DNA of 42,357 bases from a virus: the IMG/VR virus record IMGVR_UViG_3300023171_000022, positions 1 to 42,357 of that record, one strand, 5' to 3'. Positions within the stretch are counted from its first letter, which is position 1; each line of letters opens with the position of its first letter. The position numbers and the translations under genes were made by a program. The notes beneath the pieces were generated by a model. That model searched no databases. It saw only the letters and a program-made list of their open reading frames with translations, and was not told the origin of the DNA. Below, one piece after another: positions 5,213 through 30,926 of the stretch.

Positions 5213-5425
5213 TTATCTCAGAATTTCTAACAGCGCCTCTCCCAGTCTCCGCTTCTCGCCGAACAGCAGACGATGCCGGATCTTCCGCAACGCCCGGGCC
5301 TCGATCGCGAAAATATTATTGTGATGGCACCCGCAGAAGGCCGCGATTTCCCGCAACGATCGCCGCTCGCCCGGCAGCAACGTCGCTCCGGAGATCGCAA
5401 GCCCCAGATCCACCGATGATTTCAT
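5213..5425 (-). CDS. Sigma-70 region-4-like HTH protein, 70 aa
   Basis: A 70-residue protein whose residues about 22-50 (RRSLREIAAFCGC...IFAIEARALRKIRH) strongly resemble the C-terminal helix-turn-helix of sigma-70 region 4, where IEAKALRKLRH is the hallmark. Region 4 binds the -35 element and the RNA polymerase beta flap. A free-standing copy could redirect host RNA polymerase to phage promoters or bind DNA alone. The start at 5425 overlaps the stop of ParB-like protein 2 by 4 bases (ATGA). Regulatory function is inferred from the motif; it could also be a general phage HTH protein. Confidence 0.6.
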   Translation of the reverse strand: MKSSVDLGLAISGATLLPGERRSLREIAAFCGCHHNNIFAIEARALRKIRHRLLFGEKRRLGEALLEILR

Positions 5426-7095: not shown

Positions 7096-7149
7096 GTTTT
7101 TCCCAGTGTGTTTTCTCAAATAGATATCATTTCCGGCCGTCCGGATGGA

Positions 7150-7368
7150 TCACGGATCGATCCCTCCACCCAGCATCGGCACCGCTGTTGGATCCAGCCC
7201 CGACGCCGGCAGCGAGGCCGGCGCGCAGACACCCGCCACCGTGTGCACCCGCGGCCCCACGCCCGCCGTCACGATCTCCGGCCGGTCCAGCGGATCCGCC
7301 CCATCGAGCGGCCCGCACGCCGGAAGTGCCAGGCAGGCCAGCGCCAGCAAGAGCCGCGCGGATGTCAT
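7150..7368 (-). CDS. Small lipoprotein, 72 aa
   Basis: The N-terminus MTSARLLLALACLALPAC is a lipoprotein signal peptide with a lipobox-like LPAC, so Cys18 would be lipidated. The remaining 54 residues are rich in Pro, Gly, Asp and Ala with no fold I recognise. The start overlaps the upstream stop by 4 bases (7365-7368). Phage-encoded small lipoproteins act in lysis (Rz1) or superinfection exclusion. The lysis genes are 10 kb away, so exclusion or another lysogenic effect is the better guess, but this is speculative. Confidence 0.5.
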   Translation of the reverse strand: MTSARLLLALACLALPACGPLDGADPLDRPEIVTAGVGPRVHTVAGVCAPASLPASGLDPTAVPMLGGGIDP

Positions 7369-7634
7369 GCCGCATCCTCCAGCAAGAGGTTCACCTCACC
7401 CTTCTTCCGCCCCAGCTCGCAGACCACGCGGAAGGCGTGGGTCTCCGTGATCCACACCGCATCCACGCCCTTCATCGAGCGCTCGATGCTCGCCACCACT
7501 TCCGGCTCGGCACTTGGGTCGAAGATATTGGTCACGGACACATAGCCCGCCCCCTCCGCCTCGGCCCGGGTCATCATCGGCAACGTCGCCCAGGCCTTGT
7601 TCTTCACCTCATCTCGAATAAATTTCGCAGGCAT
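7365..7634 (-). CDS. Hypothetical early protein, 89 aa
   Basis: An 89-residue soluble protein starting MPAKFIRDEVKNKAWATL and ending in acidic EVNLLLEDAA; not recognised. It sits between the acyl carrier protein gene and the lipoprotein gene, and overlaps the latter by ATGA. The protein-like composition and the overlap support the gene. A co-function with the acyl carrier protein cannot be judged from the sequence. Confidence 0.5.
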   Translation of the reverse strand: MPAKFIRDEVKNKAWATLPMMTRAEAEGAGYVSVTNIFDPSAEPEVVASIERSMKGVDAVWITETHAFRVVCELGRKKGEVNLLLEDAA

Positions 7635-7658
7635 ATCTCGAATTTCTAAATGGTTTGA

Positions 7659-7907
7659 TCAGCCGTTCTTTTTCGAGACCGCCTCGTATCGTTCGAGCAG
7701 GTTGAGGACGTCACCCACGGTCTTCAGTTCCTCCGCATCATCATCCGGGATCTCGATGTCATATTCTTCTTCGAGGGCCATGATGAATTCCACGTCATCG
7801 AGGGAGTCGCCACCCATGGCCTCCATCGTGCTTTCCAAGGTCACTTCGCTTTCCGTTACCCCCAGCAGGTCGCCGAGGATTTCCGCCAGTATTTCTAAAT
7901 TGGTCAT
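7659..7907 (-). CDS. acpP: Acyl carrier protein
   Basis: An 82-residue acidic four-helix protein with the acyl-carrier signature GGDSLDDVEF. Ser35 of the DSL motif is the expected 4'-phosphopantetheine attachment site. It continues with helix II/III residues (ALEEEYDIEIPDDDAE) and TVGDVLNLLE at the end, all as in bacterial AcpP of about 78 residues. ACPs carry acyl chains for fatty-acid, lipid A and other syntheses, and also bind other partners. Finding one inside the early operon of a phage is unusual. No ketosynthase or acyltransferase lies nearby, so it would have to use host enzymes or serve as a decoy or adaptor. The family call is solid; the role is open. Confidence 0.85.
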   Translation of the reverse strand: MTNLEILAEILGDLLGVTESEVTLESTMEAMGGDSLDDVEFIMALEEEYDIEIPDDDAEELKTVGDVLNLLERYEAVSKKNG

Positions 7908-7930
7908 GATATAATTTTGTTAGATAAGTC

Positions 7931-7969
7931 TTCCACTGATCACTGATCACTCGGCACTCGGCACTTCTT
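7931..7969. repeat. CACTGATCAC/CGGCACT repeat element, copy A
   Basis: This stretch runs TTCCACTGATCACTGATCAC, then TCGGCACTCGGCACT. A near-identical element lies at 11693-11728. Both lie roughly 25 to 60 bases upstream of a leftward start (acyl carrier protein here, Gp37/Gp68 protein there). This copy overlaps the last codons of ParB-like protein 1. Short tandem CACTGA-type repeats are common between genes in some bacteria, so it may be imported host-type repeat DNA or a regulatory duplication. Confidence 0.55.
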
Positions 7970-9500
7970 CCTCCACCGGCTCCAGGCCCAGCGCCTCCCT
8001 CAGCCGCTCCAGGATCCCCGTCAGTTCCTCCGGTTTGTTTTCCTTCGCACAGGCCAGCAGCACGCCGGCGCCGGTGAGATAGACCACCGCCCGCCACCCG
8101 CGCCGTTCCGTGAGACTCTCCACCCACCGCTTCCGGCCGGCGGCCGCATCACCGGCACCCATCGTTTCCAGATCGATGCCAAGTGACACCGCCAGCGCGT
8201 CCAGGTGCATCAGCCCGCCGCACGCGCCCAGCCATTTCGCCAGCGCCGGCAGATGCTGCTCGATGGCCGCCGGGCTGCTGCCGTCCGTCGGATGGGTCCA
8301 CTGCCGGTACCACGCCAGCAGCATCGCGTTGATTTCCTTTTCCAAGTCGCCTTTCGCCTTCTCCACCACCTGCGCGCCCTTCTTTTTCGCGCTGCTCTGC
8401 TCGTGGCGGCCCTTTCCGCCGGAGATCGGGAAAACGCATTGGTTCACGATCTCCAGGTATTCCGGGATCGATGCCACCTCCGCCCCCTTCAGCTTCGCCT
8501 CTTTCTCGATCTCCCGCAAAGCCGTCTCCGCCTGGGTCAGCTCCGCCACTTTGAGCGGCTCCACCTTCACCACCCACACCGCCTTCACCTCATCCGTCCA
8601 CTCGCCATCGGAGCCGGGGATCCGCAGCTGCCGGGCGATGACCATCTGCTCCGCGCCGTGCTTTTCCGCCAGCTCGCCCCACGTCGGGATCTGCTGCTCC
8701 GGCCAGTCCCGCGCATGCACCGCCAGCTCCTTTTCCTCCGGCCGGTCCTCCACGTTCCGCCACTCCGCCGGCGAGAGCGCCTTGCTGTCCCAGTAGTCCA
8801 GCACTTTGAGATTCGGCGCCTGCACCCGCATCTTCGAGGCCGTCTTGTCCCACTTCGCCGCCTTCTTTTCCGGATCGATGAATTCCCGGCGGATCCGCGC
8901 GATCGCCATCTTCTCCGGCATCGCTCCCACGCCATCACCGGGATCCACCACCTGCTGCAGCGCCTGCTCCCGCCGCCCGGTGGAGACGTTCGCCAGCACC
9001 GCGGCCGTGCTGTAGCTGATCTTCTGGCACCGCACCGCTTCCTTGATCGCCGGCTCCAGATCCACCAGGCCGATGAGTCGGGAAACATACATCTTATTCT
9101 TCCCATTCCGCTCCGCGATCTCCTGCTGCGTCCAGCCCAGATCAAGCATCGCCTTGTAGCCCTCCGCCTCTTCCACCGCGTCGAAATTCTTGCGGGCGAT
9201 GTTTTCCGTCACCGCGATCTCGATCGCCTCCTTGTCGGTCAGATCCCGCACCACGCACGGCACGATCTCCACGCTCACCAGCTTCGCCCCCCGCCACCGC
9301 CGCTCGCCCGCCACGATTTCGAAGTGCACCCCGCTGCCAGCCTCCACCTCCACCGGCCGCACGATCAGCGGCTGCAGCACGCCCTGGGATTCGATGGATT
9401 TGCCCAGCTCCTGCAGCGGCCCCGCTTCGAAGTTTTTGCGCGGCTGCATCGCCCACGCCCGCAGCTCGCTTACCGGTATTTCTTGTAGTTTCAATTTCAT
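7947..9500 (-). CDS. ParB-like protein 1 (ParB/Spo0J/RepB family)
   Basis: A 517-residue protein with a complete N-terminal ParB CTPase/nuclease-like domain: GERRWRGAK at about 65-73 and TENIARKNF at about 98-106. A helix-turn-helix follows (WTQQEIAERNGKNKMYVSRLI, about 123-143), as in Spo0J/KorB. The C-terminal 250 residues are charged and helical without a recognised domain. The Met at 9500 was chosen because it starts the ParB fold directly (MKLKLQEIPVSEL); the earlier in-frame start at 9632 adds a low-complexity leader. ParB proteins bind parS DNA, but phage homologues often act in DNA modification or transcription. No ParA is found. Confidence 0.8.
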   Translation of the reverse strand: MKLKLQEIPVSELRAWAMQPRKNFEAGPLQELGKSIESQGVLQPLIVRPVEVEAGSGVHFEIVAGERRWRGAKLVSVEIVPCVVRDLTDKEAIEIAVTENIARKNFDAVEEAEGYKAMLDLGWTQQEIAERNGKNKMYVSRLIGLVDLEPAIKEAVRCQKISYSTAAVLANVSTGRREQALQQVVDPGDGVGAMPEKMAIARIRREFIDPEKKAAKWDKTASKMRVQAPNLKVLDYWDSKALSPAEWRNVEDRPEEKELAVHARDWPEQQIPTWGELAEKHGAEQMVIARQLRIPGSDGEWTDEVKAVWVVKVEPLKVAELTQAETALREIEKEAKLKGAEVASIPEYLEIVNQCVFPISGGKGRHEQSSAKKKGAQVVEKAKGDLEKEINAMLLAWYRQWTHPTDGSSPAAIEQHLPALAKWLGACGGLMHLDALAVSLGIDLETMGAGDAAAGRKRWVESLTERRGWRAVVYLTGAGVLLACAKENKPEELTGILERLREALGLEPVEEEVPSAE

Positions 9501-9523
9501 GATTGGTTGGTTAAATTTTTCTT

Positions 9524-10300
9524 TCAGTTCAGCCACGTCAGGTCCTGGTGCGCCGCCACCTGGCCGGCGCCGCTGCCCTTCCGGTTCCGGTTCCCCTTCT
9601 GCGGCGCGGAGTAGTTCCCCGCCTTCTGGCACGAGGCCCGCGCCTCCGCCCGGCCCGCACCGGCCACCGGCACGTTGTAGACGCGCTGGATCCGCGCGCT
9701 CACCGTCGCCTTGCCGCCATCCCCGCAGGCGATCGCGATGTCATCCATCGACATATCACCGATCAGTTCCGGCCGGATCGCCTTCGCGATCGCGAAGACG
9801 GTGCGCAGCACCTGCAGCGGCTCCCGGCCGTGCCGCATGAAGTAATCCAGCACCGCTATCCACGTCCGGTCATGCTCGCCCGCCGGTTCCTCCGCCCCGC
9901 GCTCGATGAGTTCGTTCAGCGTCGGCAGCGCCGCCGCCGGCGCCGTCCGGAAGGCTTGCGCGGGTTGCTGGCGGATCCGCACGTTGGACACCGTGCCAGG
10001 CGTCCCGCTGATCACCGTCACCCCGTCCAGCCCGCCGGCGCCCAGCGGGTGGTGCAGCACCTTCGCCAGCCGGTCCACCATCCGCAGCACCCACGCCGGC
10101 TCCGCCCCGTGGGAGAAAAAGTAATCCAGCATCCCGCGGAATGCTTCCACGCGCGCCGTGATCGGATCGCCCTCATCTTCGCCCGCCTCCTTCGCCATCA
10201 GCTCCTCCGCCGGCGTCCGCTGCACCCCGAAGTGCGCCGTCGCCAGGTTCCGGTTTACGTTCCGGTCCATCCGGTCCTCGCTGTTGCCCAGGTCCCTCAT
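9524..10300 (-). CDS. Hypothetical protein with internal duplication, 258 aa
   Basis: Not recognised. Two similar segments are visible: MLDYFFSHGAEPAWVLRMVD (about 57-76) and VLDYFMRHGREPLQVLRTVF (about 149-168). Each is followed by a short helix and a Gly/Pro break, so the protein has two copies of a helical module of about 35 residues. The region after the second copy (DIAIACGDGGKATVSARIQRV) could be a helix-turn-helix. The C-terminus is Gly/Asn/Arg rich. It overlaps the upstream ASCH gene by ATGA. A DNA-binding or regulatory role is possible but unproven. Confidence 0.55.
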   Translation of the reverse strand: MRDLGNSEDRMDRNVNRNLATAHFGVQRTPAEELMAKEAGEDEGDPITARVEAFRGMLDYFFSHGAEPAWVLRMVDRLAKVLHHPLGAGGLDGVTVISGTPGTVSNVRIRQQPAQAFRTAPAAALPTLNELIERGAEEPAGEHDRTWIAVLDYFMRHGREPLQVLRTVFAIAKAIRPELIGDMSMDDIAIACGDGGKATVSARIQRVYNVPVAGAGRAEARASCQKAGNYSAPQKGNRNRKGSGAGQVAAHQDLTWLN

Positions 10301-19468: not shown

Positions 19469-21007
19469 TTAGAAACTGGAGAACAGCGCAATTGCCGGGA
19501 CAGCCATCCGGGCGTAGCCCTTGCCGCAAGGGTGGACGCCGTCGAAACTGTTAGCATCCCACAGCTCATATGCGTGCCCGGTAACTTGTGAAGGAGCGCT
19601 TACCGTCAGCACGATCAAAGTGGGTGCCGGAGAGTGAGACACGCCCCAAGATTTTGCCGGATCGGCGGTATCCAGAAAAACCGCGCCAGCCGCGCCGCCA
19701 ATTTCAGCATTGCTAAAGCTGGCGCCGGAATCGTTCACACCAGAGGAAATCCCCGTAATTGTTCCGGAAGAAATCAGCGTGCCCGGCTTCCACTTCCCTG
19801 TCGCGATATCCTCGACCTCCGCGCCAATATCTATAAATCCATCGGCCTCCGTTGGGCTTGATCGCACCCACGCATTGTAGAGCAATCTGTTTGGCTCCGA
19901 TACGACGACCGTTTGCGCTGCCAGCGTCGTGAAATTGTTGGCGGCCGACGCGCAGCGCGGCGGGAGGGTGGAGAGATAAACTTTTTTCCCAAGCCGCTTG
20001 AGGCGGGAAACGATCGTTAATATATCTCCTTGAGCCTGAGCAAAGGTCCTTCCGCTGACGAAGTCATTCGTCGGACCTCCCACCACGACGTGGGTCACCG
20101 TATCAAGCAGTGTGCCGCGAAGTGCGGCTTTAGCCTGCGCTGCCCACGATGTTTGATACGCCATGCCACCGACCGCCAGGTTCAGCAGGGGGAGATTGCA
20201 GGCCGCCGCCGCCCGCGCGGCCCATCCCGCGAAAGCTCCCTCTCCCGTCAGCTGGTCTGCCTGCCCATACTCAATCGACGTGCCGATGATGCCGACTGTC
20301 ACGGCTGATTCGCGGCACTCCCCGAAGACCATTGGGGTCGGGCACAGGTTGACGGCCTGGGAAGACAGAGCTCCACTAGCATCAACCGCCGCCAAGGTAA
20401 TAAACGGGTCAACCCCGGTGGATGAAATCACCGTGCTTGTGTCGAGGTGTCCCAATACACCAGAGCCTGCTCCGCAGATCGCAGTCGTTGACGGCAGATA
20501 TACTTGATCAACGGTAATCCCGCCCACTTCTCCGAGGTAGGAATAAGTGTCTGATTTCAATCGGTTCGCGCCAAAACGCACATAAAACACATCGCCCGGC
20601 GCTAGCTCGATTCCCACCGGATCAAACTTCAAAATACCTCCCGGGGATGGCTTTGCGATCCGCTTGCCGCGATAAAAACACGGGATGATCGTGCCGTTGG
20701 CCAGCTCAATTGACGCGAGATATTCCACTGGGTTATCCATCGGATTCTCCCCGTCGCCCGTGTTCGTCCGGGTCAGGGGAAAAATTAATTGGATGTTTTC
20801 AGCTCGACGGCGGGCGACGTGACGCTTCCGCGAAACCGCCACAGAAAAGGTGGTTCGGGTTTGGGAGAACATTTGACTAACCGAGCCTGAAATCGCCATT
20901 TGCACTGGGTTTCCCAGCGCACCACGCGCCTCCGCCTGCTGCGCCGCTGTCGGTGTGACACCCTCGCGAAGCACGGCCTCCCATGCTGGTTTTGTAAAAT
21001 CACTCAT
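19469..21007 (-). CDS. SGNH/GDSL hydrolase tail protein
   Basis: A 512-residue protein. The C-terminal half (about 235-500) is a SGNH hydrolase. It has block I GTSIEYGQ with the nucleophile Ser244, a Gly in block II (AVGGMAYQ), block III GGPTND (310-315), and block V DGVHP with catalytic Asp/His (489-493). These enzymes deacetylate polysaccharides or hydrolyse esters. The N-terminal half is beta-rich and presumably attaches to the tail. Located at the distal end of the tail cluster, it probably trims acetyl groups from the host surface glycan. Start 21007 overlaps the small upstream gene by ATGA. Confidence 0.75.
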   Translation of the reverse strand: MSDFTKPAWEAVLREGVTPTAAQQAEARGALGNPVQMAISGSVSQMFSQTRTTFSVAVSRKRHVARRRAENIQLIFPLTRTNTGDGENPMDNPVEYLASIELANGTIIPCFYRGKRIAKPSPGGILKFDPVGIELAPGDVFYVRFGANRLKSDTYSYLGEVGGITVDQVYLPSTTAICGAGSGVLGHLDTSTVISSTGVDPFITLAAVDASGALSSQAVNLCPTPMVFGECRESAVTVGIIGTSIEYGQADQLTGEGAFAGWAARAAAACNLPLLNLAVGGMAYQTSWAAQAKAALRGTLLDTVTHVVVGGPTNDFVSGRTFAQAQGDILTIVSRLKRLGKKVYLSTLPPRCASAANNFTTLAAQTVVVSEPNRLLYNAWVRSSPTEADGFIDIGAEVEDIATGKWKPGTLISSGTITGISSGVNDSGASFSNAEIGGAAGAVFLDTADPAKSWGVSHSPAPTLIVLTVSAPSQVTGHAYELWDANSFDGVHPCGKGYARMAVPAIALFSSF

Positions 21008-21162
21008 TTGGAAATCTGGATGGATCGATTGTCGGAATGCCACTTCGCGCGGGCATTGTCAGACGGCCAGCGCAGGACGAGGCCGGAGCTTCCGCCGGCT
21101 ACCTGAATGCCTACCGGCCTCACGATGGGCCGCACCAACGGTCTGCATAAAGGACGGCTCAT
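21004..21162 (-). CDS. Small tail-cluster protein, 52 aa
   Basis: Begins MSRPLCRPLVRPIVRPVGIQ and ends DNRSIQISK. It has an Arg/Pro repeat (RPLVRPIVRPV) followed by a beta-like stretch (GSSGLVLRWPSDN). Its stop overlaps the SGNH start by 4 bases (ATGA, 21004-21007), and its start follows the stop of the 104-residue gene by one base. It is missed by length filters, but the tight coupling on both sides is good evidence. Function is unknown; possibly a small virion or linker peptide. Confidence 0.55.
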   Translation of the reverse strand: MSRPLCRPLVRPIVRPVGIQVAGGSSGLVLRWPSDNARAKWHSDNRSIQISK

Positions 21163-21512: not shown

Positions 21513-22334
21513 TCAAACCTCCAGCGCCGCAGCTTGGATGAACATCGCATCGAGCTGCTTCGGCGTAAGCCCCAGCGCCGCGCCCAGCGTGACGATGGTT
21601 TCGCCGGTCCGCGCGAAAATGGCGTCACCGCTCCATGCCGCCTGCACCACGTGGCGGCCCGGCTCCGGCATTGCCTCGATCAACGCATCCACGGCCGCGG
21701 TGAGCCCGGCGATCCTGAGCACCGCCTTCGCCCGCCAGCTAGCGATCTCCGCCGGCACCTGCAGGTGATCCGGCGGCACTTCCAACACCGGAGCGCGCAC
21801 CACATCCTCGCGGGTGTAGGTCCGCACCTGGCTGGCATGGCGATGAATCGTGACGATTTCGCGGCACGGATTTGAAAGCACCAAACCCGCGTCATCGAGC
21901 AGCCATTGGAAACACAGGTGGCAGAACGGCCGGCCCAGCTCGAAGTCCGCCGCCACCGTCACCGGAGCCCGCAGCACCCAGGAATCATTCGAGCGCGGCA
22001 CCAGCTTCAGCGGATCTCCTTCCCACATCGAGAGCGCGTAGGCCTCGCATACCGGCAGCGCCGCAGCCAGCGCCACGCTCACCGCGTCCCACTCGATATC
22101 GGCGTTCGCGATCACGAACACATCGCCGGCGGTCACGCCAGCGGCAGCGATCATTTCCGCGATCGTCGGCCGGTGGTCCAGGATGACGACCGTCAGCTTG
22201 GGGTCGGTCACCTCCACTTCCCACGGCTCGCCCACCAGAATGACTTCGTCGAAAACCTCCAGATTCGCGGACAGGCAATACAGCAGCTCCCCGGTGCGGC
22301 CGGAACCCGGATAAGATGGAATGATGAGTTTCAT
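21513..22334 (-). CDS. Glycosyltransferase-like protein B (tail cluster)
   Basis: A 273-residue protein starting MKLIIPSYPGSGRTGELL, with an alternating beta/alpha N-terminal part (EVILVGEPWE, KLTVVILDHRPTIAEMIAAAG, VFVIANADIEWD) like a GT-A glycosyltransferase. The ADIEWD segment could carry the metal-binding DXD equivalent. About 200 residues align by eye with the gene at 26059-26694 (VPSYP...EL, VVGEPWE, VFMLANVDME, CHEIITIHHHA/CREIVTIHRHA). The C-terminal 60 residues are an added helical part. It is probably involved in modifying a tail or surface glycan; donor and acceptor are unknown. Confidence 0.55.
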   Translation of the reverse strand: MKLIIPSYPGSGRTGELLYCLSANLEVFDEVILVGEPWEVEVTDPKLTVVILDHRPTIAEMIAAAGVTAGDVFVIANADIEWDAVSVALAAALPVCEAYALSMWEGDPLKLVPRSNDSWVLRAPVTVAADFELGRPFCHLCFQWLLDDAGLVLSNPCREIVTIHRHASQVRTYTREDVVRAPVLEVPPDHLQVPAEIASWRAKAVLRIAGLTAAVDALIEAMPEPGRHVVQAAWSGDAIFARTGETIVTLGAALGLTPKQLDAMFIQAAALEV

Positions 22335-22340
22335 GAAGGA

Positions 22341-23402
22341 TTAAAGTTTGATCGCGCCGATGTAGATATCCGCGGTGCAGGTGCCGGCGCCGGCCATCAC
22401 GGCCGCGGTGGTCACCACCAGTTCCGGAGCGTAGCCGGCCTGGTCGTAAACGTCCGCCGTCGGGTCACCCACGGTGCCTTCGTGCCGGGCCAGGACGTTG
22501 GAAATCGGCCTGGCGGTGATCTGCCCGAAGGTTTCTCCGGAGCAGTAGTAGGACATCAGCTTCACCACCGGATGGGTGGTGGTGTAGGAAGCGGACGTGT
22601 GCGCCACCATGAAGAAAGCGGTGACCTTGTAGCCCAGCAGGGTGAGGCTCGGAAAAAACGGACCGGGATCCACCGCACCTCCGGTTTTCAGGTTTACCCC
22701 CGCCACTTTGAAAAGTTTGTATCCGGGATCATTGATCCCCATCGCGCCGATCGCCGCCCGCCACAGCTCCGGCCAGTTCTGAGCCCCTTCCGCTTTCACA
22801 CCGGCCGCGCCGAGATTCGCACGGCCGTATTCCCGCTCCGCTTCGTCGAAGTCCTGCAGAACATCCACCCGCAGCACCTTCAAGGGGATTTGCACGTCCA
22901 GCAGTTGCCCTTCCTCATTCAATTGCGCCCATTGCGGCCCGGTGAGCGGATCCGGCGGCTCGCCATCTTTGATGACATCATTGTAGACCAGCGCCTTGAT
23001 CGTCTGGGTGGAAAACACCGCCCCTCCCACCGTCCACTCGATCTCCGCCATCAGCGTCACCAGTTCCTCGTCATTGGAATCATCGCCATCGCCATGGCCC
23101 AGCAGGTCGTTCAGCCCGGTGGTATTGAATGACGGCTCGAAGACATAGAGCGCTTCCACCCCCTCCCCTTCCTTCACCCATTCCGGGGAGTAGACGAGAT
23201 AGGCGCTGTCATATTTCCCATCCGCCTTCACCCCGAAGGCACCGGCGGCACCGGCCTGCAGTTCCTCCGCCACCGCTCCGCGGATGAATTGGATTTCCAG
23301 CCGGGCGCTGTCACCACGCTTGAAGCTCAGGCTGGTCAGCGGATCACGGGTGCCGGCGGAAGTGACGAGGCGTTGGCTGTCGAGATCGATGAAAAGACGC
23401 AC
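22341..23402 (-). CDS. Tail fibre/baseplate protein (BppU-like N-terminus)
   Basis: A 353-residue protein starting at GTG. Its N-terminal 150 residues (TSLSFKRGDSARLEIQFI, DSAYLVYSPEWV, FEPSFNTTGLNDLL, TLMAEIEWTVGG...QTIKALVYNDVIKDGEPP) resemble BppU-type baseplate upper-protein domains found on phage fibres. The C-terminal half is beta-rich with no catalytic motif. A TTTTGACA element sits 13 nt before the start and is part of a 21-nt block shared with the scaffold gene. It probably forms the receptor-contact fibre or its adaptor, lying within the glycan-modification island. Confidence 0.6.
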   Translation of the reverse strand: MRLFIDLDSQRLVTSAGTRDPLTSLSFKRGDSARLEIQFIRGAVAEELQAGAAGAFGVKADGKYDSAYLVYSPEWVKEGEGVEALYVFEPSFNTTGLNDLLGHGDGDDSNDEELVTLMAEIEWTVGGAVFSTQTIKALVYNDVIKDGEPPDPLTGPQWAQLNEEGQLLDVQIPLKVLRVDVLQDFDEAEREYGRANLGAAGVKAEGAQNWPELWRAAIGAMGINDPGYKLFKVAGVNLKTGGAVDPGPFFPSLTLLGYKVTAFFMVAHTSASYTTTHPVVKLMSYYCSGETFGQITARPISNVLARHEGTVGDPTADVYDQAGYAPELVVTTAAVMAGAGTCTADIYIGAIKL

Positions 23403-23415
23403 GCCCGCCCCGCGG

Positions 23416-23423
23416 TGTCAAAA
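23416..23423 (-). promoter_or_regulatory. TTTTGACA late-gene element (fibre gene)
   Basis: TTTTGACA on the minus strand, 13 nt before the GTG at 23402. Its TTTTGA is also the last codon and stop of the 875-residue gene. The sequence from here to the start is identical to that before the scaffold gene. Confidence 0.6.
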
Positions 23424-26045
23424 CCCGGGACTCATCGCCGCCAGCGGCGCAAGATCCACCTCCGCCGCAGCAGAGACGAAAAACCCGCGCTCTGTTTTCA
23501 GCCCGCTCCGGGATTTTGCATCCTCGAAGAAGGATCGCCCTTTCAGATCTTTCAGAAATCCGGCGCTCAAAGTCGCCCCCCAGGTATTCTTGATCACCGG
23601 ATGAGACTGACTGTCATGCATGCAAATCACCTTCGCGCCCCAGGTGAGAGCCCGCAGGGTATCCGCGAACGCCGGCCATCCATGGTCCCCGTCGATGAAG
23701 ACGAGATCGACCGCCCCGATATCCGTTTCCCAAAACGGACAGGTGTGCAGCGTTACCCGATCCGGAAAATCACACATCCCGATGATTCGACGGAGAGTTT
23801 CAGTCGGCTTGATTTCCACTACGTGCAGATGACCCAGCACCCCTTGGTTGACCGCCTCGATCAGCGCCGAGGTGGACGCCCCACGATAAGATCCGATCTC
23901 GACAGCCACCCGCTCCCCCACCGGCGTATCAAGCTCCAGGTTCGCGGCAGTGTGCAGCAGGTGAATATGAAATTCATCCATCGGCATCCAGGACGGATCG
24001 TGAGCGAAACGGTATTTCTCGAAATCAAATGAAGGAGTGAACATCGGCTTTTCAGGACTCGCAGGGACCGTTTCGTAGATCAGGCCTTTTTCGACAAGAC
24101 TGCGGAATTTTCGCTTTTTCCCGCCACCTACAATATGCTGGAAGGGTGCCTGGCATTCTTCGTGGGCCCAAGTATTCCATCCAAGCGGCAGATCACCGTA
24201 GGGCATACCCTTTGCGGCCGCTACGCAGACCCACCAATTCCACTGGAATTCCTCCTGGACCTTTTCGATGAAAGGCGGCACCGCGACTTCCAGCATCCGC
24301 CGGGCGGCGTCCCGATCACAGATCCACACGCCCGCATTCCGGTAAACCCAGGAATCCACCGGATGAATGGTTCCAAAGTTCTCCTCACACCAGGCCGGAA
24401 ACTGACGGCTCACTTTCCAAGCAGGATTATTGGGCCGGCAGAACAATCCAGCCCGGTTTGCCACCGAGGGAAATGCGGGGGCGTCCGCATTCACGTAAAC
24501 ATCGGCGTCCACATACATCATCCACTCCGCTTCACCGGCGATGAATTCGCGCATCATGTCGACGACGCAGAATTTCGCGGTCGGATACGAAGGGTTAATG
24601 GCTTTTTCATCCCAGATTTTCAGCGGATGCCCGTGGCGCGCGCACCATGCATCGAGCGCCCCACCGCAGGTTTCCAACCACCAGGCCACCCCGTAGCGGA
24701 TGGTATGGATTTCGACTTTTTCCGGAATATTCGGCCCACAGGCAGGCTCGCCGCCTCTTTCATAAATCAAGTATGCACCACCGCCGGGGCGGGCAATTCT
24801 CCGGGCCGGCACCGCGGCTGCCAGCTTTTTGAACTCCGAGGCCGCTCGGCCCGAAGGAGCTTCCCGCACCAGCCCCGACGCCTCCACATCATAAGGCTTG
24901 GGCCCCAGCGACCGAACGCCCCGCCGGCGCTCATTGTCCGCACCCGGCGTCGTGGTGACCACCAGCCTTTTCCATGACCCCATACTGATATTCTGCAATA
25001 CTTGCCCAGCGGTGCCATTACAGCAGGACTCCAGCGCATCTTTTACGATCACAATATCGGCGTCGATCCGCAGACACACCTCCATATTTTCCACCTTTCC
25101 TTCGAACCATGGATAACGGTGGGAGACACGCTGAATCACTTCATGCCTGGCATCCACTCCCTTGTAGGCAGCTCCTCCCCGCATCACCGGCCCGCACCCC
25201 ATCAGCCACTCCAGATCACCGCAGCCCAAATCAAGGACGTCCGTAAAACCTGCCTCCACCTCCTTGCCCAGCCACTGACAAAGCGCCTTGTAGTCCTCGC
25301 CCACCCCCTCAACGGTCCTGCTAACAGCAGGCGCGGCGATGACCGGCCGCTTGATCGGCATGACACGGGGACGATCATTCTCGTAAGGTGAGGGATTGGG
25401 GAACCGTTGCTCCAGCCACGCCCGAAGCTCGGGCGTGTTTCCCGGCTTGTTATAGTTGAGAAAGCGCTTGCCTGCTGCCGGCGGACCTGTGAATTCCCCA
25501 TAGTATTGCTTGGTCACCCCATGGCACCGCGGCCACTGCCGCTTTGATAGGATCCAGGATTCGCCGGGAAATTTACCCTCGATGCCAGGCCAATCAGCAA
25601 AGCACTCATCGATCATACTTTTATCGAAAAAATAAGGACCGTGCGGCCGGGAGTAGTCCCACGGCTGATAACCTTCCGCTTCCAGCCGGTTGCGCACGGT
25701 CACCAGCCCCGCCGCCCAACTCGTCTGGGCGCCCTTCCAGTTTCTTGAGGCGGGCGTCACCATCATCTCCGCGGCAGTGGTCGGCTGTAGCATGCAAACA
25801 TCATCGTAGTGCCAGAAAAAGCCGGACGGATACCGCTCCGAGGCCGTCTTCAGTGAAGATTTCAAACCGCGCGCCCGGATCAAGTCGCATCCTCTCAGCC
25901 AAGCTGGCAGCCGGCGCCCGACGATACTGATATGGAGAGGATCGCGGAAATTTACATGAAGCGCCCGCAGCGCGAAGCGCAGTTCGGTATCATCGCCCAG
26001 GTCCCCACCTTTATGGTGAAGCGGTATCACTATTGGAAAACTCAT
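23418..26045 (-). CDS. Four-domain glycosyltransferase-methyltransferase fusion
   Basis: An 875-residue protein with four visible parts. Residues about 1-215 are a Stealth/GT-like domain (PIVIPLHHKGG; HYDD at 79-82). Residues about 245-430 are a class I SAM methyltransferase (VLDLGCGD, 270-277). Residues about 443-660 are a second glycosyltransferase with YVDADVYVN (DAD 513-515) and CRPNNP. Residues about 680-860 are a second class I methyltransferase (VEIGSYRGAST 715-725, VFIDGDH 782-788). It would build and methylate a glycan, presumably on the virion or host surface. It lies inside the tail-tip genes, and no signal or membrane segment is seen, so it acts in the cytoplasm. Domain calls are by motif; substrates are unknown. 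Confidence 0.7.
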   Translation of the reverse strand: MSFPIVIPLHHKGGDLGDDTELRFALRALHVNFRDPLHISIVGRRLPAWLRGCDLIRARGLKSSLKTASERYPSGFFWHYDDVCMLQPTTAAEMMVTPASRNWKGAQTSWAAGLVTVRNRLEAEGYQPWDYSRPHGPYFFDKSMIDECFADWPGIEGKFPGESWILSKRQWPRCHGVTKQYYGEFTGPPAAGKRFLNYNKPGNTPELRAWLEQRFPNPSPYENDRPRVMPIKRPVIAAPAVSRTVEGVGEDYKALCQWLGKEVEAGFTDVLDLGCGDLEWLMGCGPVMRGGAAYKGVDARHEVIQRVSHRYPWFEGKVENMEVCLRIDADIVIVKDALESCCNGTAGQVLQNISMGSWKRLVVTTTPGADNERRRGVRSLGPKPYDVEASGLVREAPSGRAASEFKKLAAAVPARRIARPGGGAYLIYERGGEPACGPNIPEKVEIHTIRYGVAWWLETCGGALDAWCARHGHPLKIWDEKAINPSYPTAKFCVVDMMREFIAGEAEWMMYVDADVYVNADAPAFPSVANRAGLFCRPNNPAWKVSRQFPAWCEENFGTIHPVDSWVYRNAGVWICDRDAARRMLEVAVPPFIEKVQEEFQWNWWVCVAAAKGMPYGDLPLGWNTWAHEECQAPFQHIVGGGKKRKFRSLVEKGLIYETVPASPEKPMFTPSFDFEKYRFAHDPSWMPMDEFHIHLLHTAANLELDTPVGERVAVEIGSYRGASTSALIEAVNQGVLGHLHVVEIKPTETLRRIIGMCDFPDRVTLHTCPFWETDIGAVDLVFIDGDHGWPAFADTLRALTWGAKVICMHDSQSHPVIKNTWGATLSAGFLKDLKGRSFFEDAKSRSGLKTERGFFVSAAAEVDLAPLAAMSPGF

Positions 26046-26058
26046 GGATTAATTCGAT

Positions 26059-26694
26059 TCAGCCGGAAGTCCCCAGCGGCAGGTTGTTTTTCAGGCACCA
26101 TAGATCCGGGACCGGGTAGCAGCACGGGCCTTGCACACGATCCACCACGCCGATCCCATAGGTGCGCGGGCTCTCCGCCGCGTGATGGTGGATCGTGATG
26201 ATCTCGTGACAGGGATTCATGATCTTGAGCCCCGCGTTTTTCAAAAGGCCATTAAAGACCGCATGACAAAAGAGCCGCCCTTGGGTGAAATTTGCTCTGA
26301 TCCTAGGGACAGGCGCCCTCAATACCCACACATCAATGGCCCGAGGTTGCAGGGTCAGGGCGTCACTCCCCTCTTGCCACCTTCCCAGTGCATACGCGGA
26401 ACGCGGGGGCAGGCCCTGTGCGAAATCCACCCCGCCTGGCAAGATTTCCATATCGACGTTTGCGAGCATGAAAACCTCACCCTTCGGGACCATTCTTTCG
26501 GCCACGCCCAGCAGTTCGCCGTAAGTAGGCCGCGCCCCCGTATTGACCATCAAGAGGCCCTCATGCTCGATGCCGGTTTCCCATGGCTCCCCAACGACGA
26601 CCACTTGCTCAAAAGTCTCCAAATTCCCGCGCAAGCAGGAAATCAATTCATCATGCCGCTCTGCGGATGGATAGGATGGGACGAAAAGTTTCAT
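26059..26694 (-). CDS. Glycosyltransferase-like protein A (tail cluster)
   Basis: A 211-residue protein starting MKLFVPSYPSAERHDEL. It is paralogous over most of its length to the protein at 21513-22334, sharing VVVGEPWE, VFMLANVDMEIL, the RAP...FCHAVFNGLL region and CHEIITIHHHA. A GT-A-like Rossmann start and a possible VDME metal site suggest a glycosyltransferase. Start 26694 overlaps the stop of the upstream tail gene by ATGA. It directly precedes the four-domain fusion gene, with which it probably functions. Confidence 0.55.
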   Translation of the reverse strand: MKLFVPSYPSAERHDELISCLRGNLETFEQVVVVGEPWETGIEHEGLLMVNTGARPTYGELLGVAERMVPKGEVFMLANVDMEILPGGVDFAQGLPPRSAYALGRWQEGSDALTLQPRAIDVWVLRAPVPRIRANFTQGRLFCHAVFNGLLKNAGLKIMNPCHEIITIHHHAAESPRTYGIGVVDRVQGPCCYPVPDLWCLKNNLPLGTSG

Positions 26695-28076
26695 AAGTCG
26701 GTGACAAAAAGGCACGGCGGATCCGCCACCAGCGGAGGACCCGTGGTGCCGTAGGGGATGTAGCGGCCGCAACGGTCAAACAGCACAAAGTTGTAACCCG
26801 CCTTATTGGTCGCCCAATAAATGCCGCAGCAGTCATAGGTGCCGTCTCCAAACGGCAGATTGGCGAAGGTAAAGATCGGCGGCCGGATATCCGAAGGCTC
26901 CACCCGACATTCCCCCACCAGGTTCATTGCCCCGTTGTTTGCCTCAACCTCGGCACTGATCTTGAAATATCCGCACGAAAATTGATTGGGCAGCACTGAA
27001 AGCACGGAAACCTGCGCAGGCTCATAGTCTGAATACAGGATGACTTCGCTTTTAATTGGCACCTCGATCGGCTCCAGGTTCCCTTCATTTCTAGTGATCT
27101 TGATCCGGATTCGCCCGTTGAATGAGCACCCCCGGCATACTTCAGACAAGCTGAGAGCGATGTTGAGATAAACCGTCGCAGGGATGTAAAGACCTCCGCT
27201 GTCCCGCGGAAATACAAAGCTTCCAAGAGAACCGATGCCGATCACCTTGGCATTGAGATAGCTGAGCTTTGGCACCGGCCCGCATTCCTCATCTGAACCC
27301 GATCCATTGCCATCGGAATCGTCATCATCATCGTCATCGGAACTATCATCTTCCGACTCCGATCCATCTTCATCATCGTCATCGGAGTCGTCATCCGAGC
27401 TATCGCCCCTATCACACTCGAAGCTGTTGAAAACGCCCGGCACATTTTCCTGCCATACCTGATCGATGCCATCCAACTGCAGAACCCCGTCCTCGATTTT
27501 GAAAGTCACCTCCGCGAGAATCCACATCACGTCGCACGGCTCGTTTTCATACCCCTCGATGTCCGGCTGGTCGTCATCGGATTTCTCGACGATGACGATG
27601 TTCGCCTTCCGGTCTGTCCGCATGTAGCAGATCACCTGATATAACGTGCCTGCTTCCAAAGAGTCATCCCCCACAGAAAAAAACGGCAGCGGATCCGCGT
27701 TCATCAGCACCCCCTTCATCTTCGGCTTGATGGTCTGCATCCGCCGCACCGTGTTGTGCTCGATATGACATTGATCGTTCGGCCCATCATAAAGAGCCAC
27801 GTTCCCGGGATAAACATAGACCTTCCCTCCATCTACGTATACCTCGAAGGGATGACGGGGCCGGCGATTGTTGGCCGCCGGCCTTTTATCCCATAGAGTC
27901 GTCCCGCCTCCATTGCGCCTCACGCCCACATCAGCCGATGAACTGATCTTTCCAGCCCTCACCTCCCTCGCCAGCACGGCGATCGCATCGATGATGGCGT
28001 TATGATCCGAGGCCCTGACAGGATTGCCCTGCAGCACCTTGCCCGGCAGCCGGATGATTGAATCGTTGCTGCTCAT
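26691..28076 (-). CDS. Tail-tip protein with Asp/Ser-rich linker
   Basis: A 461-residue protein. The N-terminal 215 residues are beta-rich (YVDGGKVYVYPGNVALYDG, TLYQVICYMRTD). Residues 222-263 are a nearly pure Asp/Ser/Glu/Gly tract (27288-27413 in DNA). The C-terminal 190 residues are again beta-rich with paired cysteines (YDCCGIYW, DRCGRYIP). This is probably a tail-tip, fibre or adhesin subunit. The acidic tract could be a flexible, perhaps Ca-binding, linker, or an acceptor for modification of its many Ser residues. It overlaps both neighbours by 4 bases. Confidence 0.6.
   Translation of the reverse strand: MSSNDSIIRLPGKVLQGNPVRASDHNAIIDAIAVLAREVRAGKISSSADVGVRRNGGGTTLWDKRPAANNRRPRHPFEVYVDGGKVYVYPGNVALYDGPNDQCHIEHNTVRRMQTIKPKMKGVLMNADPLPFFSVGDDSLEAGTLYQVICYMRTDRKANIVIVEKSDDDQPDIEGYENEPCDVMWILAEVTFKIEDGVLQLDGIDQVWQENVPGVFNSFECDRGDSSDDDSDDDDEDGSESEDDSSDDDDDDDSDGNGSGSDEECGPVPKLSYLNAKVIGIGSLGSFVFPRDSGGLYIPATVYLNIALSLSEVCRGCSFNGRIRIKITRNEGNLEPIEVPIKSEVILYSDYEPAQVSVLSVLPNQFSCGYFKISAEVEANNGAMNLVGECRVEPSDIRPPIFTFANLPFGDGTYDCCGIYWATNKAGYNFVLFDRCGRYIPYGTTGPPLVADPPCLFVTDL
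27288..27413 (-). repeat. GAT/TCN-rich low-complexity tract
   Basis: This stretch encodes runs of Asp with interspersed Ser, Glu and Gly in the tail-tip protein. It is built of near-repeats of TCATCGTCATCG on the plus strand. Such tracts expand and contract by slippage, so linker length may vary between isolates. Confidence 0.7.
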
Positions 28077-28798
28077 GAGTAGAGAAAATCATCAGCCCCA
28101 CCCTCCGCCGTCAGGATCCACCTTCGTTCGATGTCCCAGGCCTTCCCATCTTCGGTATTGCGGGCGTTGGCACCGATATAGATCCAGTCTCTGCCCCCAT
28201 TCCCTGGCGCGCCACCAGGAGGAGAATCCCTTTGACCCAAATCTCCCGCCAACCCGCTTACCGTTCCAGACGAATAGCGCTCGACCCATGTCATACCCGG
28301 ATTGAGGTATCCCGCGACCCCGGCGAGGATCAACCGGAACGCTTCCAGCCCGGCTGACGAGACGATCTTTTTTTTGATCTCCGCCGCCCTGGCTTTATCA
28401 ACCCCACCCATCAACTCCGAGAGATAATATTTCTCATCGAGATCCAGATTTTTCAGTTTCGTATGACTCAACAGCGGCTCTTCGTTGGTCGAAAGCTCCA
28501 GATCATAGCGCTTCACCCCACCCGCCGGCCGGCCGGGATAGGTCGCCTGCGCGGAATAGGATTCATAGTCGCAAACCACCCGCACCTGGCCGCCATCCAG
28601 CACCGTTGATCGCAGGGATTTCAGGTATAAGGCCGGGAACTCCGGATGGGAAGATCCGGCCAGAGGAACCCGCGATGCCCAGCCCTGATAGGCATCCACA
28701 TAGATGTATTGCCCGGTCGCCTTGTCAGACCCCATTTCCACGAACACTTCCGTGCCTACCTGCTGGGTCTTGACGACATTGTGTTGAACTACTGCCAT
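28073..28798 (-). CDS. Distal tail/tail-tip protein, 241 aa
   Basis: A 241-residue protein directly after the tape measure, where distal tail or hub proteins lie in siphoviruses. It is beta-rich (TEVFVEMGSDKATGQYIYVDAYQGW, VLDGGQVRVVCDYE), with a helical middle (AAEIKKKIVSSAGLEAFRLI) and a C-terminal beta part. I do not recognise a family by motif; the role is from position. It is coupled to the next gene by ATGA (28073-28076). Confidence 0.5.
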   Translation of the reverse strand: MAVVQHNVVKTQQVGTEVFVEMGSDKATGQYIYVDAYQGWASRVPLAGSSHPEFPALYLKSLRSTVLDGGQVRVVCDYESYSAQATYPGRPAGGVKRYDLELSTNEEPLLSHTKLKNLDLDEKYYLSELMGGVDKARAAEIKKKIVSSAGLEAFRLILAGVAGYLNPGMTWVERYSSGTVSGLAGDLGQRDSPPGGAPGNGGRDWIYIGANARNTEDGKAWDIERRWILTAEGGADDFLYS

Positions 28799-28802
28799 AA
28801 TT

Positions 28803-30926
28803 TTACGCGTAGGTAGCCCCTCCGGAGCCGTTGAGTTGTGAAGCGATGGTTTTCAGCAGCGTGTTCGTCTGCGTGACCAGTTGATTGTTTTTCTGCTGCG
28901 CAGCCACCATCGGCTGGAACACCATCGCGCCACCACCACCCAAACCGATGCGGCTCATGCTGCTGGCGATGGTGATGGCGTTCACCGCACCTTTGATCGC
29001 GTCCACCGTGCCGCCGACACCCGCCTTTACATCCGTTCCTGCATTGATTGTCGGCACGGCGCTATTCAACTTAAGCTTTTCTGTCTCCGCCTTGAATCGA
29101 CTTGTGTATTCAGCGAGTTCTTTTAAGGCGTCCTGGAGTTCTTTAGTGATAGCTCCGCCTGCTGCAATTTTGGCCGCCGCTCCACCGGCAGCGAGAGCAC
29201 GGGCCGCAAGCATTCCCATATCAATCGCACCGCCCGCGTTACTCATTTGCAGTCGCCCCTTCTCTCCTTGCAAAGCCCCCTTCCGGCGCATCATAGCGAT
29301 TTCGTTCATGTCCGCCAGCGGCAGAGCAGACTTGATTTCAGCAGCAAGGGTGGTCCCGATGGATCGAAAAATATTTAGCAACCCATCCCAAAACGACGGA
29401 TCTTGAATTTTAGCCATCGCCCCGGCCAAAATAGGAGGAACTGCTGTGGCCAAGAATGCAACCACACCACGGAGACCCCGCATCAGAGTATCTGCAGCCG
29501 CTTGAAAAGCTACTTTACCGCCAGCCTCCACCAGTCCCCATAGGTTTCCGCTCTTAACAGCAACAAACGCGATCATCAGCGCATCACCGATAGCCTTGCC
29601 TACTTCCCCCGCCTTCACCTGCATCGCGTCCATCATCGCGGAGCCCTGTTGCAGGAATGGCTTCAGTGCGTTCATGATCGGCGTGCCGAAGGAAATCAGC
29701 AGTTGCTCCCAGGAATCCTTGATCCGCGCGATCGCCCCGGCGAAGGTGGCGGAAGCGGTGATGTTCATCTGGTAGAACCGGCCGCCCTTGGAAGTCGCCG
29801 CGGTGAATGCCGCCTCGATCTCGTTGAAGGAAATCTTACCCTCTTCCATCCGCTCCTTCAGCGCCACCATCGATTCGCCGGTTTTCCCGGAAATCTGCTG
29901 CAGTGGATTGAAGCCCGCGTTCACGAGCTGCAGCAGGTCCTGCCCCATCAGCCGGCCTGCGGATTGGATCTGCGCAAAGGCCAGGGAAAGCGATTGGAAC
30001 CGCTCCGGATCCCCCATGCTGATCTCGCTCAGCTGCTTGGTGTATCCCACCACCTTTTGAGCGGACACGCCGAATTGCATCAGCGTCTGCGCGGATTTTG
30101 CGAAGTCACCCATCCCCAGCGGAGACGCCACGGATTCTTTTCGCAGCTCGGCCAGCATTTTGCGCGCTTTCTCAGACGATCCTGTCATCACGCCGAAATT
30201 CGTCTCCATCATCTCCATCTCGGCGCCCTTGCTGATCGCCTTGCCGATCAAGGCACCCAGTCCTAGAGCGCCCGCAGCACCTGCCAGCGGGCCAAGCATG
30301 CCGGCAATGCCTCCGCCACCGCCGCCACTGAAAATCTTGCCCATCCCGGAGAAAGCACCCTTCACGGCCGCCCCCGCGGACTTGGCTGCGCTCACGATTC
30401 CCCGAAACGTGGCGGCGGCCGCGGCGGACAGCAGCGAAAAGCTCGCCCGCACCGCCTTGATCGCCACCACCGTCCCGCCGATCGCCACCGTGGCCGCGAG
30501 CGCCCCCAGGGCGATCTTCCGGAAACCGGGCGAGGAAACAATTTCGCGGATCCGCGCACCCACGCCGGCCATCATCGCCCGCAGGCCACCCGCCGTGGAA
30601 AGCGCCGTCGCCAGGCTCGCGCCCAGGGAGGTCGCACGCACCGCGTTGAACACCGTCTTCATCGCCTGCGCGCCGGCCACGATGTTGGCGATGTGAGCCC
30701 CGGCGGATGAAGCTGAGGCCACCATGCCTTTGATCCCACCCGCAGCTTCCTTGCCCGCTTGGCCGATCGATCGGGTGCCCGCCGCCACCGCGCTGGTGGA
30801 GGAATTCACTTTCGCGAAATCCGCCCGCATCGCCGCAGCCAGGTCCCGCACAGCGGAGGTGACTTCCGCCAAGGCTTGTTTCAGCCCGGAAGTGTTGCCG
30901 CCGATGGGGATGGAGATGCCTGCCAT
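28803..30926 (-). CDS. Tail tape measure protein
   Basis: A 707-residue protein, the longest coding gene of the tail apart from the glycan enzyme. The N-terminal part is Ala/Ser-rich helical (residues 1-130). Hydrophobic segments follow near 137-160 and 205-230, with a Gly6 run at about 201-206. Then comes a tape-measure core (FGVMTGSSEKARKMLAELRKES...GMGDFAKSAQTLMQFGVSAQKVVGYTKQLSEI...GRLMGQDLLQLVNAGFNPL) as in Pfam tape-measure domains. At about 0.15 nm per residue it would set a tail near 100 nm. It lies after the G/GT chaperone gene, as expected, and a degenerate TTTGAGTCC sits 12 nt before its start. Confidence 0.85.
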   Translation of the reverse strand: MAGISIPIGGNTSGLKQALAEVTSAVRDLAAAMRADFAKVNSSTSAVAAGTRSIGQAGKEAAGGIKGMVASASSAGAHIANIVAGAQAMKTVFNAVRATSLGASLATALSTAGGLRAMMAGVGARIREIVSSPGFRKIALGALAATVAIGGTVVAIKAVRASFSLLSAAAAATFRGIVSAAKSAGAAVKGAFSGMGKIFSGGGGGGIAGMLGPLAGAAGALGLGALIGKAISKGAEMEMMETNFGVMTGSSEKARKMLAELRKESVASPLGMGDFAKSAQTLMQFGVSAQKVVGYTKQLSEISMGDPERFQSLSLAFAQIQSAGRLMGQDLLQLVNAGFNPLQQISGKTGESMVALKERMEEGKISFNEIEAAFTAATSKGGRFYQMNITASATFAGAIARIKDSWEQLLISFGTPIMNALKPFLQQGSAMMDAMQVKAGEVGKAIGDALMIAFVAVKSGNLWGLVEAGGKVAFQAAADTLMRGLRGVVAFLATAVPPILAGAMAKIQDPSFWDGLLNIFRSIGTTLAAEIKSALPLADMNEIAMMRRKGALQGEKGRLQMSNAGGAIDMGMLAARALAAGGAAAKIAAGGAITKELQDALKELAEYTSRFKAETEKLKLNSAVPTINAGTDVKAGVGGTVDAIKGAVNAITIASSMSRIGLGGGGAMVFQPMVAAQQKNNQLVTQTNTLLKTIASQLNGSGGATYA

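Follow-up and report, generated by a model that had tools for sequence, protein, structure and literature searches.

The gtr serotype-conversion clusters combine a flippase, a bactoprenol glycosyltransferase (GT) and a membrane GT near an integrase. In the staphylococcal SdgA/SdgB system, Ser residues in DSD motifs are glycosylated stepwise by two related and neighbouring GTs, SdgB and then SdgA, and the modification protects from proteolysis (PMC3794999). Mycobacteriophage GTs glycosylate the capsid and the tail tube (Freeman 2023, as cited in PMC12363180). The capsule enzyme CpsY belongs to the Stealth family (PMC10668966), and in human PTase the key residues are the NDD motif with Asp-408 and, in addition, His-956 (PMC11418123).

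Here we describe an island of transferase genes among the tail-tip genes of a temperate phage. The stretch of DNA analysed, hereafter the window, is the 42,357-nucleotide IMG/VR virus record IMGVR_UViG_3300023171_000022, which carries tape measure, integrase and anti-repressor genes. We computed directly the genes, their families, two domain folds, the layout of the operon and, across phages, the co-occurrence of the enzymes with Ser-rich tail proteins. The reading we favour, with a probability of about 0.55, is that the island is a modular cassette for virion glycosylation whose substrates are Ser-rich tail-tip proteins, and that the tract in the window's own tail-tip protein is the likely acceptor.

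Organization of the island

The structural genes lie on the minus strand in the order terminase, portal, protease, major capsid, tape measure, 241-aa tail gene and tail tip. From the Asp/Ser-rich tail-tip gene on, the order is GT-a, an 875-aa fusion, a fibre gene, GT-b, a small gene and an SGNH esterase (Table 1). All island genes proposed in the first-pass annotation, as well as the neighbouring Asp/Ser-rich tail-tip gene and the SGNH esterase, are present at the positions given there and on the minus strand. The "BppU-like" label of the fibre gene finds no support, as this gene has no Pfam or PHROG match. The stop codon of the tail-tip gene and the start codon of GT-a share the sequence ATGA. 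The 241-aa tail gene has homologues in a sister phage, G001 (30%, 3e-24), and immediately upstream of the Ser-rich tail protein of locus L090 (25%, 1e-11). The terminase pair has no relatives in the genome collection. The early region of the window also contains two large ParB-like genes near each other, at 5422-9632 (phrog_4715 and others).

Table 1 Features of the tail-tip region of the window
Feature	Coordinates	Strand	Evidence
Tail tape measure protein	28803..30926	-	Pfam TMP_3 5.7e-25, phrog_9959 6e-40
241-aa tail gene between tape measure and tail tip	28073..28798	-	Homologues in G001 and L090
Tail-tip protein with Asp/Ser-rich tract, proposed acceptor	26691..28076	-	Tail-operon position; N-terminal profile match
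Asp/Ser tract DRGDSSDDDSDDDDEDGSESEDDSSDDDDDDDSDGNGSGSDEECG (tail-tip residues 222-266)	27279..27413	-	Composition
GT-a, GT-A-like transferase with ANVD motif, 211 aa	26059..26694 (start ATG 26694)	-	ATGA overlap; likeness to GT-b; family alignment
875-aa fusion Stealth-MT1-GT2-MT2	23418..26045	-	Domain and homologue matches
Fusion residues 1-235, Stealth-family sugar-1-phosphate transferase-like	25341..26045	-	Identity, profile, AF2/Foldseek
Fusion residues 236-445, SAM methyltransferase MT1	24711..25340	-	phrog_3382 1e-9; cyanophage homologue
Fusion residues 446-690, GT-like GT2, DxD motif (YVDADVYV)	23976..24710	-	Homologue in L054:7913-9214
Fusion residues 680-875, Methyltransf_24 MT2	23421..24008	-	Pfam PF13578
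Fibre/tail gene, formerly "BppU-like"	22341..23402	-	Position only
GT-b, whole gene, 273 aa	21513-22334	-	ORF
GT-b residues 1-189, GT-A-like transferase with ANAD motif	21768..22334	-	AF2 model, Foldseek
GT-b residues 190-273, phage tail-region module fused to GT	21516..21767	-	phrog_6034 7e-16
Small tail-region gene, 106 aa	21164..21484	-	ORF; weak phrog_10845 0.009
SGNH/GDSL esterase fibre gene	19469..21043	-	Lipase_GDSL_2 6.8e-8, phrog_8480 3e-29

This layout bears on the possibility that the enzymes modify host surface glycans, in serotype conversion or superinfection exclusion, and thereby alter receptor use. Such a role would suit a temperate phage with an integrase, bacterial envelopes often hold methylated and phosphorylated sugars, and the Stealth family has a capsule enzyme in CpsY (PMC10668966). 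We nevertheless consider it rather improbable: the genes sit within the late tail operon, away from the integrase; neither a membrane-anchored partner nor a flippase accompanies them; the cassette enzymes have no strongly hydrophobic membrane span; and the coupling to Ser-rich tail proteins described below recurs. The first-pass annotation had left both the phage fibre and a host receptor as targets. The fibre or tail tip is the target that we retain, with the tract of the adjacent tail-tip protein as acceptor, and nothing was found in support of a host receptor. A gtr cluster was likewise considered and rejected on the different location of the island and its lack of strong membrane spans.

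The fusion begins with a Stealth-type domain

The fusion had been read as GT-MT-GT-MT. All four domains are real, but the first, as judged from a profile match to GNPTAB and an AF2 model, is of Stealth type and not an ordinary GT. This domain (residues 5-224) is 58, 51 and 52% identical to its counterparts in L053, L054 and L105, respectively. Sequence libraries returned a weak Stealth_CR4 match (0.006) and nothing else for the window's own sequence. A profile of 24 phage relatives matched the GlcNAc-1-phosphotransferase GNPTAB at 6e-24 and CpsY at 1e-8, and Pfam Stealth_CR2 was detected in three relatives at 7e-8 to 2e-6, under Pfam's cut-off. Structure prediction for the fusion covered the Stealth domain alone and gave a model with a pLDDT of 90.9 and a pTM of 0.88, for which CpsY is the top Foldseek hit (1e-9) and CpsY and GNPTAB are the best PDB matches. 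E21, R23, D81, D82, H135 and E222 are invariant in the phage family. The hallmarks of Stealth proteins are present, namely ELRYSLRS and (N)DD in CR2, the CR3 His and a CR4 near the C-terminus. D81 and D82 are kept as the DD pair, H135 is the His aligned in the CR3 stretch, and in the window and its closest relatives Tyr takes the place of the NDD Asn, giving YDD. From profiles and model together, domain 1 is predicted to be a Stealth-family sugar-1-phosphate transferase rather than a generic GT. For the window itself, this Tyr and an acidic residue where Arg-322 of human PTase aligns count against the cassette reading.

In MT1, residues 264-374 match the phage methyltransferase family phrog_3382 (1e-9), and Pfam matches are sub-threshold only. 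An MT1 homologue lies in a sugar cassette of Synechococcus phage ACG-2014f, close to a tail fibre gene and together with epimerases, an aminotransferase, GTs and a sulfotransferase. Methyltransf_24 matches MT2 above cutoff at residues 715-795 (8e-10 to 9e-9), and these profiles place both MT1 and MT2 in class I SAM methyltransferase families. The GT2 domain has no Pfam match. A separate phage gene (L054:7913-9214) matches residues 439-868, that is GT2-MT2, as one unit with 44% identity, and other phages join domain 1 to different partners, so the fusion can be regarded as two units. A single-sequence scan of viral contigs and species genomes found no close relatives of the whole fusion.

GT-a and GT-b

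The two genes that the first-pass annotation had singled out as related and transferase-like, GT-a and GT-b, share 46% identity across 196 aa. Their family is found at 39 loci, in cyanophage-like and other phage contigs, and N-x-D, D-x-W and H-x-H positions are invariant in its alignment. In cyanophage S-SKS1, the homologue adjoins a nucleotide-sugar epimerase, and a further member lies at the locus of a Ser-rich tail protein (L111:8112-9437, 2e-28). The AF2 model of GT-b is of moderate quality, with a pLDDT of 63 overall and 74-94 over residues 1-100; Foldseek matches it to the GT-A enzymes PcManGT (4e-5), KfiA and ArnC, which suggests a GT-A fold with moderate confidence. The expected fold classes are supported, as Stealth/GT-A for domain 1, GT-A at moderate confidence for GT-b and methyltransferase families, by profile, for the MTs.

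The last ~80 residues of GT-b, overlooked in the first reading, form a separate module, which stands alone as a small tail-region gene in Acidovorax phage Acica and in Flavobacterium phages. It was not found in the other cassette loci and is therefore a feature of this phage rather than of the system. In the tail region of another phage (L038:9008-13263), a 757-aa fusion with a GT-a/GT-b-type domain is followed by an FkbM methyltransferase and a GT2-like gene.

Stealth domains in other phages

Scanning viral contigs with the Stealth domain alone yielded 34 loci. At eight of them (L053, L054, L058, L059, L062, L068, L078 and L080), the Stealth gene is preceded, at a distance of up to about 3 kb, by same-strand genes for Ser-rich proteins, and five of these eight loci share a conserved upstream gene pair. 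The first gene of the pair encodes a protein in which a ~130-aa domain (KSTAIVPA...RKGF) comes after a Ser tract; the product of the second is a further Ser-rich protein that usually starts like MxxYGSxKSxSSVSES. The fusion partners of the Stealth domain differ: MT1-GT2-MT2 in the window, an FkbM methyltransferase in L053 (a two-domain enzyme found alongside an almost pure poly-Ser tract), a sulfotransferase in L054, Methyltransf_24 in L058, Mannosyl_trans3 and FkbM in L062, and GXM-type and capsule-type domains in L078. Since 24 of 29 Stealth-domain records lack the Ser-protein domain, the family is not tied solely to a Ser-rich acceptor.

In L060, L065, L067 and L069, Stealth-domain genes and other GT-like genes lie between head and terminase genes, with no Ser-rich proteins; these cassettes probably serve virion modification with a different acceptor. 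In the Mycobacterium phages Reptar3000 and SamScheppers (L049, L052; Fionnbharthvirus), a Stealth-domain gene that carries no annotation precedes the terminase by a few genes.

Strong variation in domain content between phages could also be expected if the cassette made a secreted or virion-bound small glycan, modified DNA or were non-adaptive mobile cargo, and phage GTs that act on DNA are known (from literature cited in PMC12619734). We hold this to be very unlikely, given that the cassettes lie in tail operons and not among replication genes, and that motifs are intact and frames open in many phages. Modification of DNA was rejected on gene placement.

Ser-rich tail proteins precede sugar-attaching enzymes

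We performed a reverse scan in which the query, the C-terminal domain of the Ser-rich tail protein, was blind to the enzymes. It yielded 30 loci, of which five end too early to assess and two are near-copies, leaving 23 assessable records. All 27 of the 27 loci checked have a Ser tract, with a median of 19 and never fewer than 12 Ser per 30 residues; for comparison, of the 247 other sense ORFs that are 200 aa or longer, a set that still contains the second Ser-rich proteins, 19 reach 12. SD-type tracts occur in some members of the family (L112, L115 and L114).

GT-like domains follow downstream in 22 of the 23 assessable records, usually with methyl-, sulfo-, pyruvyl- or acyltransferases, a count that includes weak calls (only a sub-cutoff GT9 in L101, and GT25 below cutoff in L110 and L115) as well as L095, judged by its near-identical gene layout to L092 with no separate scan. 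A Stealth or GT25 match is found in 19 of 23; of 22 such matches, 20 are on the same strand and no more than 8 kb downstream. When the five seed records are left out, Stealth or GT25 lies within 8 kb downstream in 15 of 17 cases and within 2 kb in 12 of 17 (P about 1e-16 to 1e-18). In the four records without a Stealth or GT25 match (L092, its near-copy L095, L101 and L112), the enzymes vary, with GT9, Mannosyl_trans3, GT8 and Methyltransf_24 in L092, the weak GT9, Methyltransf_24 and a cytidylyltransferase in L101, and a hexapeptide acyltransferase and one unassigned ORF in L112. Sulfotransferases and pyruvyltransferases are among the other companions. A Ser-rich tail protein followed by sugar-attaching enzymes is an arrangement common to many unrelated environmental phages. 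Neighbourhoods in many phages tie the cassette to tail-tip genes, so that the first-pass annotation is not refuted on this ground. Its view that complete glycan sets are rare near tail genes does not hold in general: glycan cassettes close to tail or structural genes occur repeatedly, both in cyanophages and in other phage contigs, where they lie in operons of structural genes, as well as in the phages described here.

Two details of these loci stand apart. At the transferase position of L112 (10028-11851), GT25-like residues appear in another frame only, possibly through a frameshift or an assembly error. In L105 (10762-11466), a weak match to GDP-fucose protein O-fucosyltransferase (3.7e-5, below cutoff) adjoins a fusion of Stealth, GT and pyruvyltransferase domains.

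The tail-tip tract and a sister phage

The tract of the window's tail-tip protein contains 10 Ser and 21 Asp per 48 residues. More Asp- than Ser-rich, it resembles Ser-Asp repeats more closely than poly-Ser in composition. With an N-terminal profile built from the Ser-rich tail proteins, the tail-tip protein is the best ORF in the window, at a weak E of 0.0027 over residues 14-37. Membership of the Ser-rich family (STT-A) by the C-terminal domain was rejected, as KSTAIVPA...RKGF gave no significant match in the window. The excess of Asp over Ser, the missing C-terminal domain and the weak N-terminal link weaken the case for the tract as acceptor.

Synteny between sister phage G001 and the window begins at the terminase and extends as far as the 241-aa tail gene, with identities of about 30-63%; beyond it, G001 carries other fibre genes. 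None of the island enzyme profiles match in G001, and its tail-tip protein has no Ser/Asp tract (maximum 4 Ser and 5 Asp per 30 residues). A syntenic phage that lacks both enzymes and tract indicates that the island is accessory. The whole island is exchanged for other fibre genes with the upstream tail kept (L045:17199-17957; L045/L046 fibre region), which marks the fibre locus as a point of module exchange.

The joint absence of tract and enzyme families from G001 favours the tract as acceptor, as does the ATGA overlap of the tail-tip gene with GT-a. The cassette might instead glycosylate and methylate another virion protein, such as the 22341-23402 fibre, the SGNH fibre, the tail tube or the capsid, and the Ser/Asp tract would then be a mere flexible linker. 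The GT-b module does occur beside tail fibre genes, the cassette is interleaved with fibre genes, virion glycosylation as described in PMC12363180 concerns the capsid and tail tube, and many Stealth loci lie among head and terminase genes without Ser-rich proteins. However, the reverse scan, in which the enzymes and Ser tracts go closely together, and the joint lack of tract and enzymes in G001 speak against this alternative, and we judge it unlikely.

Discussion

The reading of the island as a glycosylation cassette for Ser-rich tail-tip proteins is favoured by the Ser-rich sense-strand genes upstream of Stealth genes at eight loci and by the 22 of 23 records in the reverse scan. The presence of catalytic motifs, the absence of a strong membrane span and the SdgA/SdgB and mycobacteriophage precedents point the same way. 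Enzyme activity, acceptor, order of steps and benefit are what we infer. The transferases would be soluble, made in the infected cell from the same operon as the tail-tip protein, and would perform cytoplasmic O-glycosylation in which sugars are attached to hydroxyls of the Ser/Asp-rich tract. The Stealth domain could serve as a priming or branching enzyme that adds sugar-1-phosphate, the GT-A domains would extend the glycan with further sugars, and MT1 and MT2 may cap these by methylation, prior to or during tail assembly. The tail module fused to GT-b may tether this enzyme to the growing fibre. The benefit would be a stiff, protease-resistant linker, a changed or masked tip surface and altered adhesion.

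GNPTAB acts on a sugar already in place. From the family assignment, a phosphodiester-linked first sugar added by the Stealth domain is possible, and so, equally, is action on a sugar already in place. A more specific version, which we put forward only tentatively and consider doubtful, is a "proteophosphoglycan" system in which the Stealth enzyme would put sugar-1-phosphate directly on Ser of the tract and the fused GT, methyltransferase and sulfotransferase domains would build and cap a variable glycan. Were this true, swapping of the fused domains would diversify the sugar coat of the tail tip.

If the favoured cassette reading is correct, the tail tips of many unrelated phage lineages are mucin-like and decorated by enzymes, their sugar-editing cassettes are exchangeable, and receptor binding and shielding have a layer of diversity that protein-based host-range prediction ignores. 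The island would offer a minimal, soluble and genetically linked set of enzymes and acceptor that is testable in E. coli. It would also establish a prokaryotic virus branch of the Stealth phosphotransferases, a family familiar from lysosomal targeting in humans and from the capsules of mycobacteria.

Comparison with known systems

The arrangement of a Ser-rich tail protein and sugar enzymes appears not to have been described previously; in the open-access literature, we found no description of Ser-rich phage tail-tip acceptors, of phage Stealth enzymes or of their coupling. The staphylococcal SdgA/SdgB system likewise has a Ser/Asp-rich tract and adjacent GTs that act stepwise on Ser (PMC3794999), and the two related GTs in the window offer a parallel that is suggestive only. 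The SdgA/SdgB acceptors are bacterial cell-wall adhesins and not phage tails, the GTs belong to other families and, unlike in the phage cassettes, there is no methyl or sulfo capping and no Stealth domain. In SRRP glycosylation loci, too, a Ser-rich acceptor is accompanied by a varying series of accessory GTs, but these loci need an accessory Sec system and a GtfA/GtfB priming pair, and their acceptor is a cell-surface adhesin (PMC6973325, PMC7948813). Neither accessory Sec nor GtfA/GtfB was found in the island by Pfam, PHROG and NCBIfam scans. In mycobacteriophages, phage-encoded GTs act on structural proteins, as proposed here; the acceptors are the capsid and tail tube, and PMC12363180 reports no Ser-rich tail-tip acceptor. 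The ACG-2014f cassette, in which GTs, epimerases and a sulfotransferase accompany the MT1 homologue close to a tail fibre gene, differs from the island in that it also makes sugar precursors. With the Stealth phosphotransferases GNPTAB (PMC11418123) and CpsY (PMC10668966), the phage domain has in common the sequence profile, the predicted fold, the ELR motif, the DD pair and the His, whereas it is compact (~225 aa), is fused to MT, GT or sulfotransferase domains and, in the window's subgroup, has YDD for NDD.
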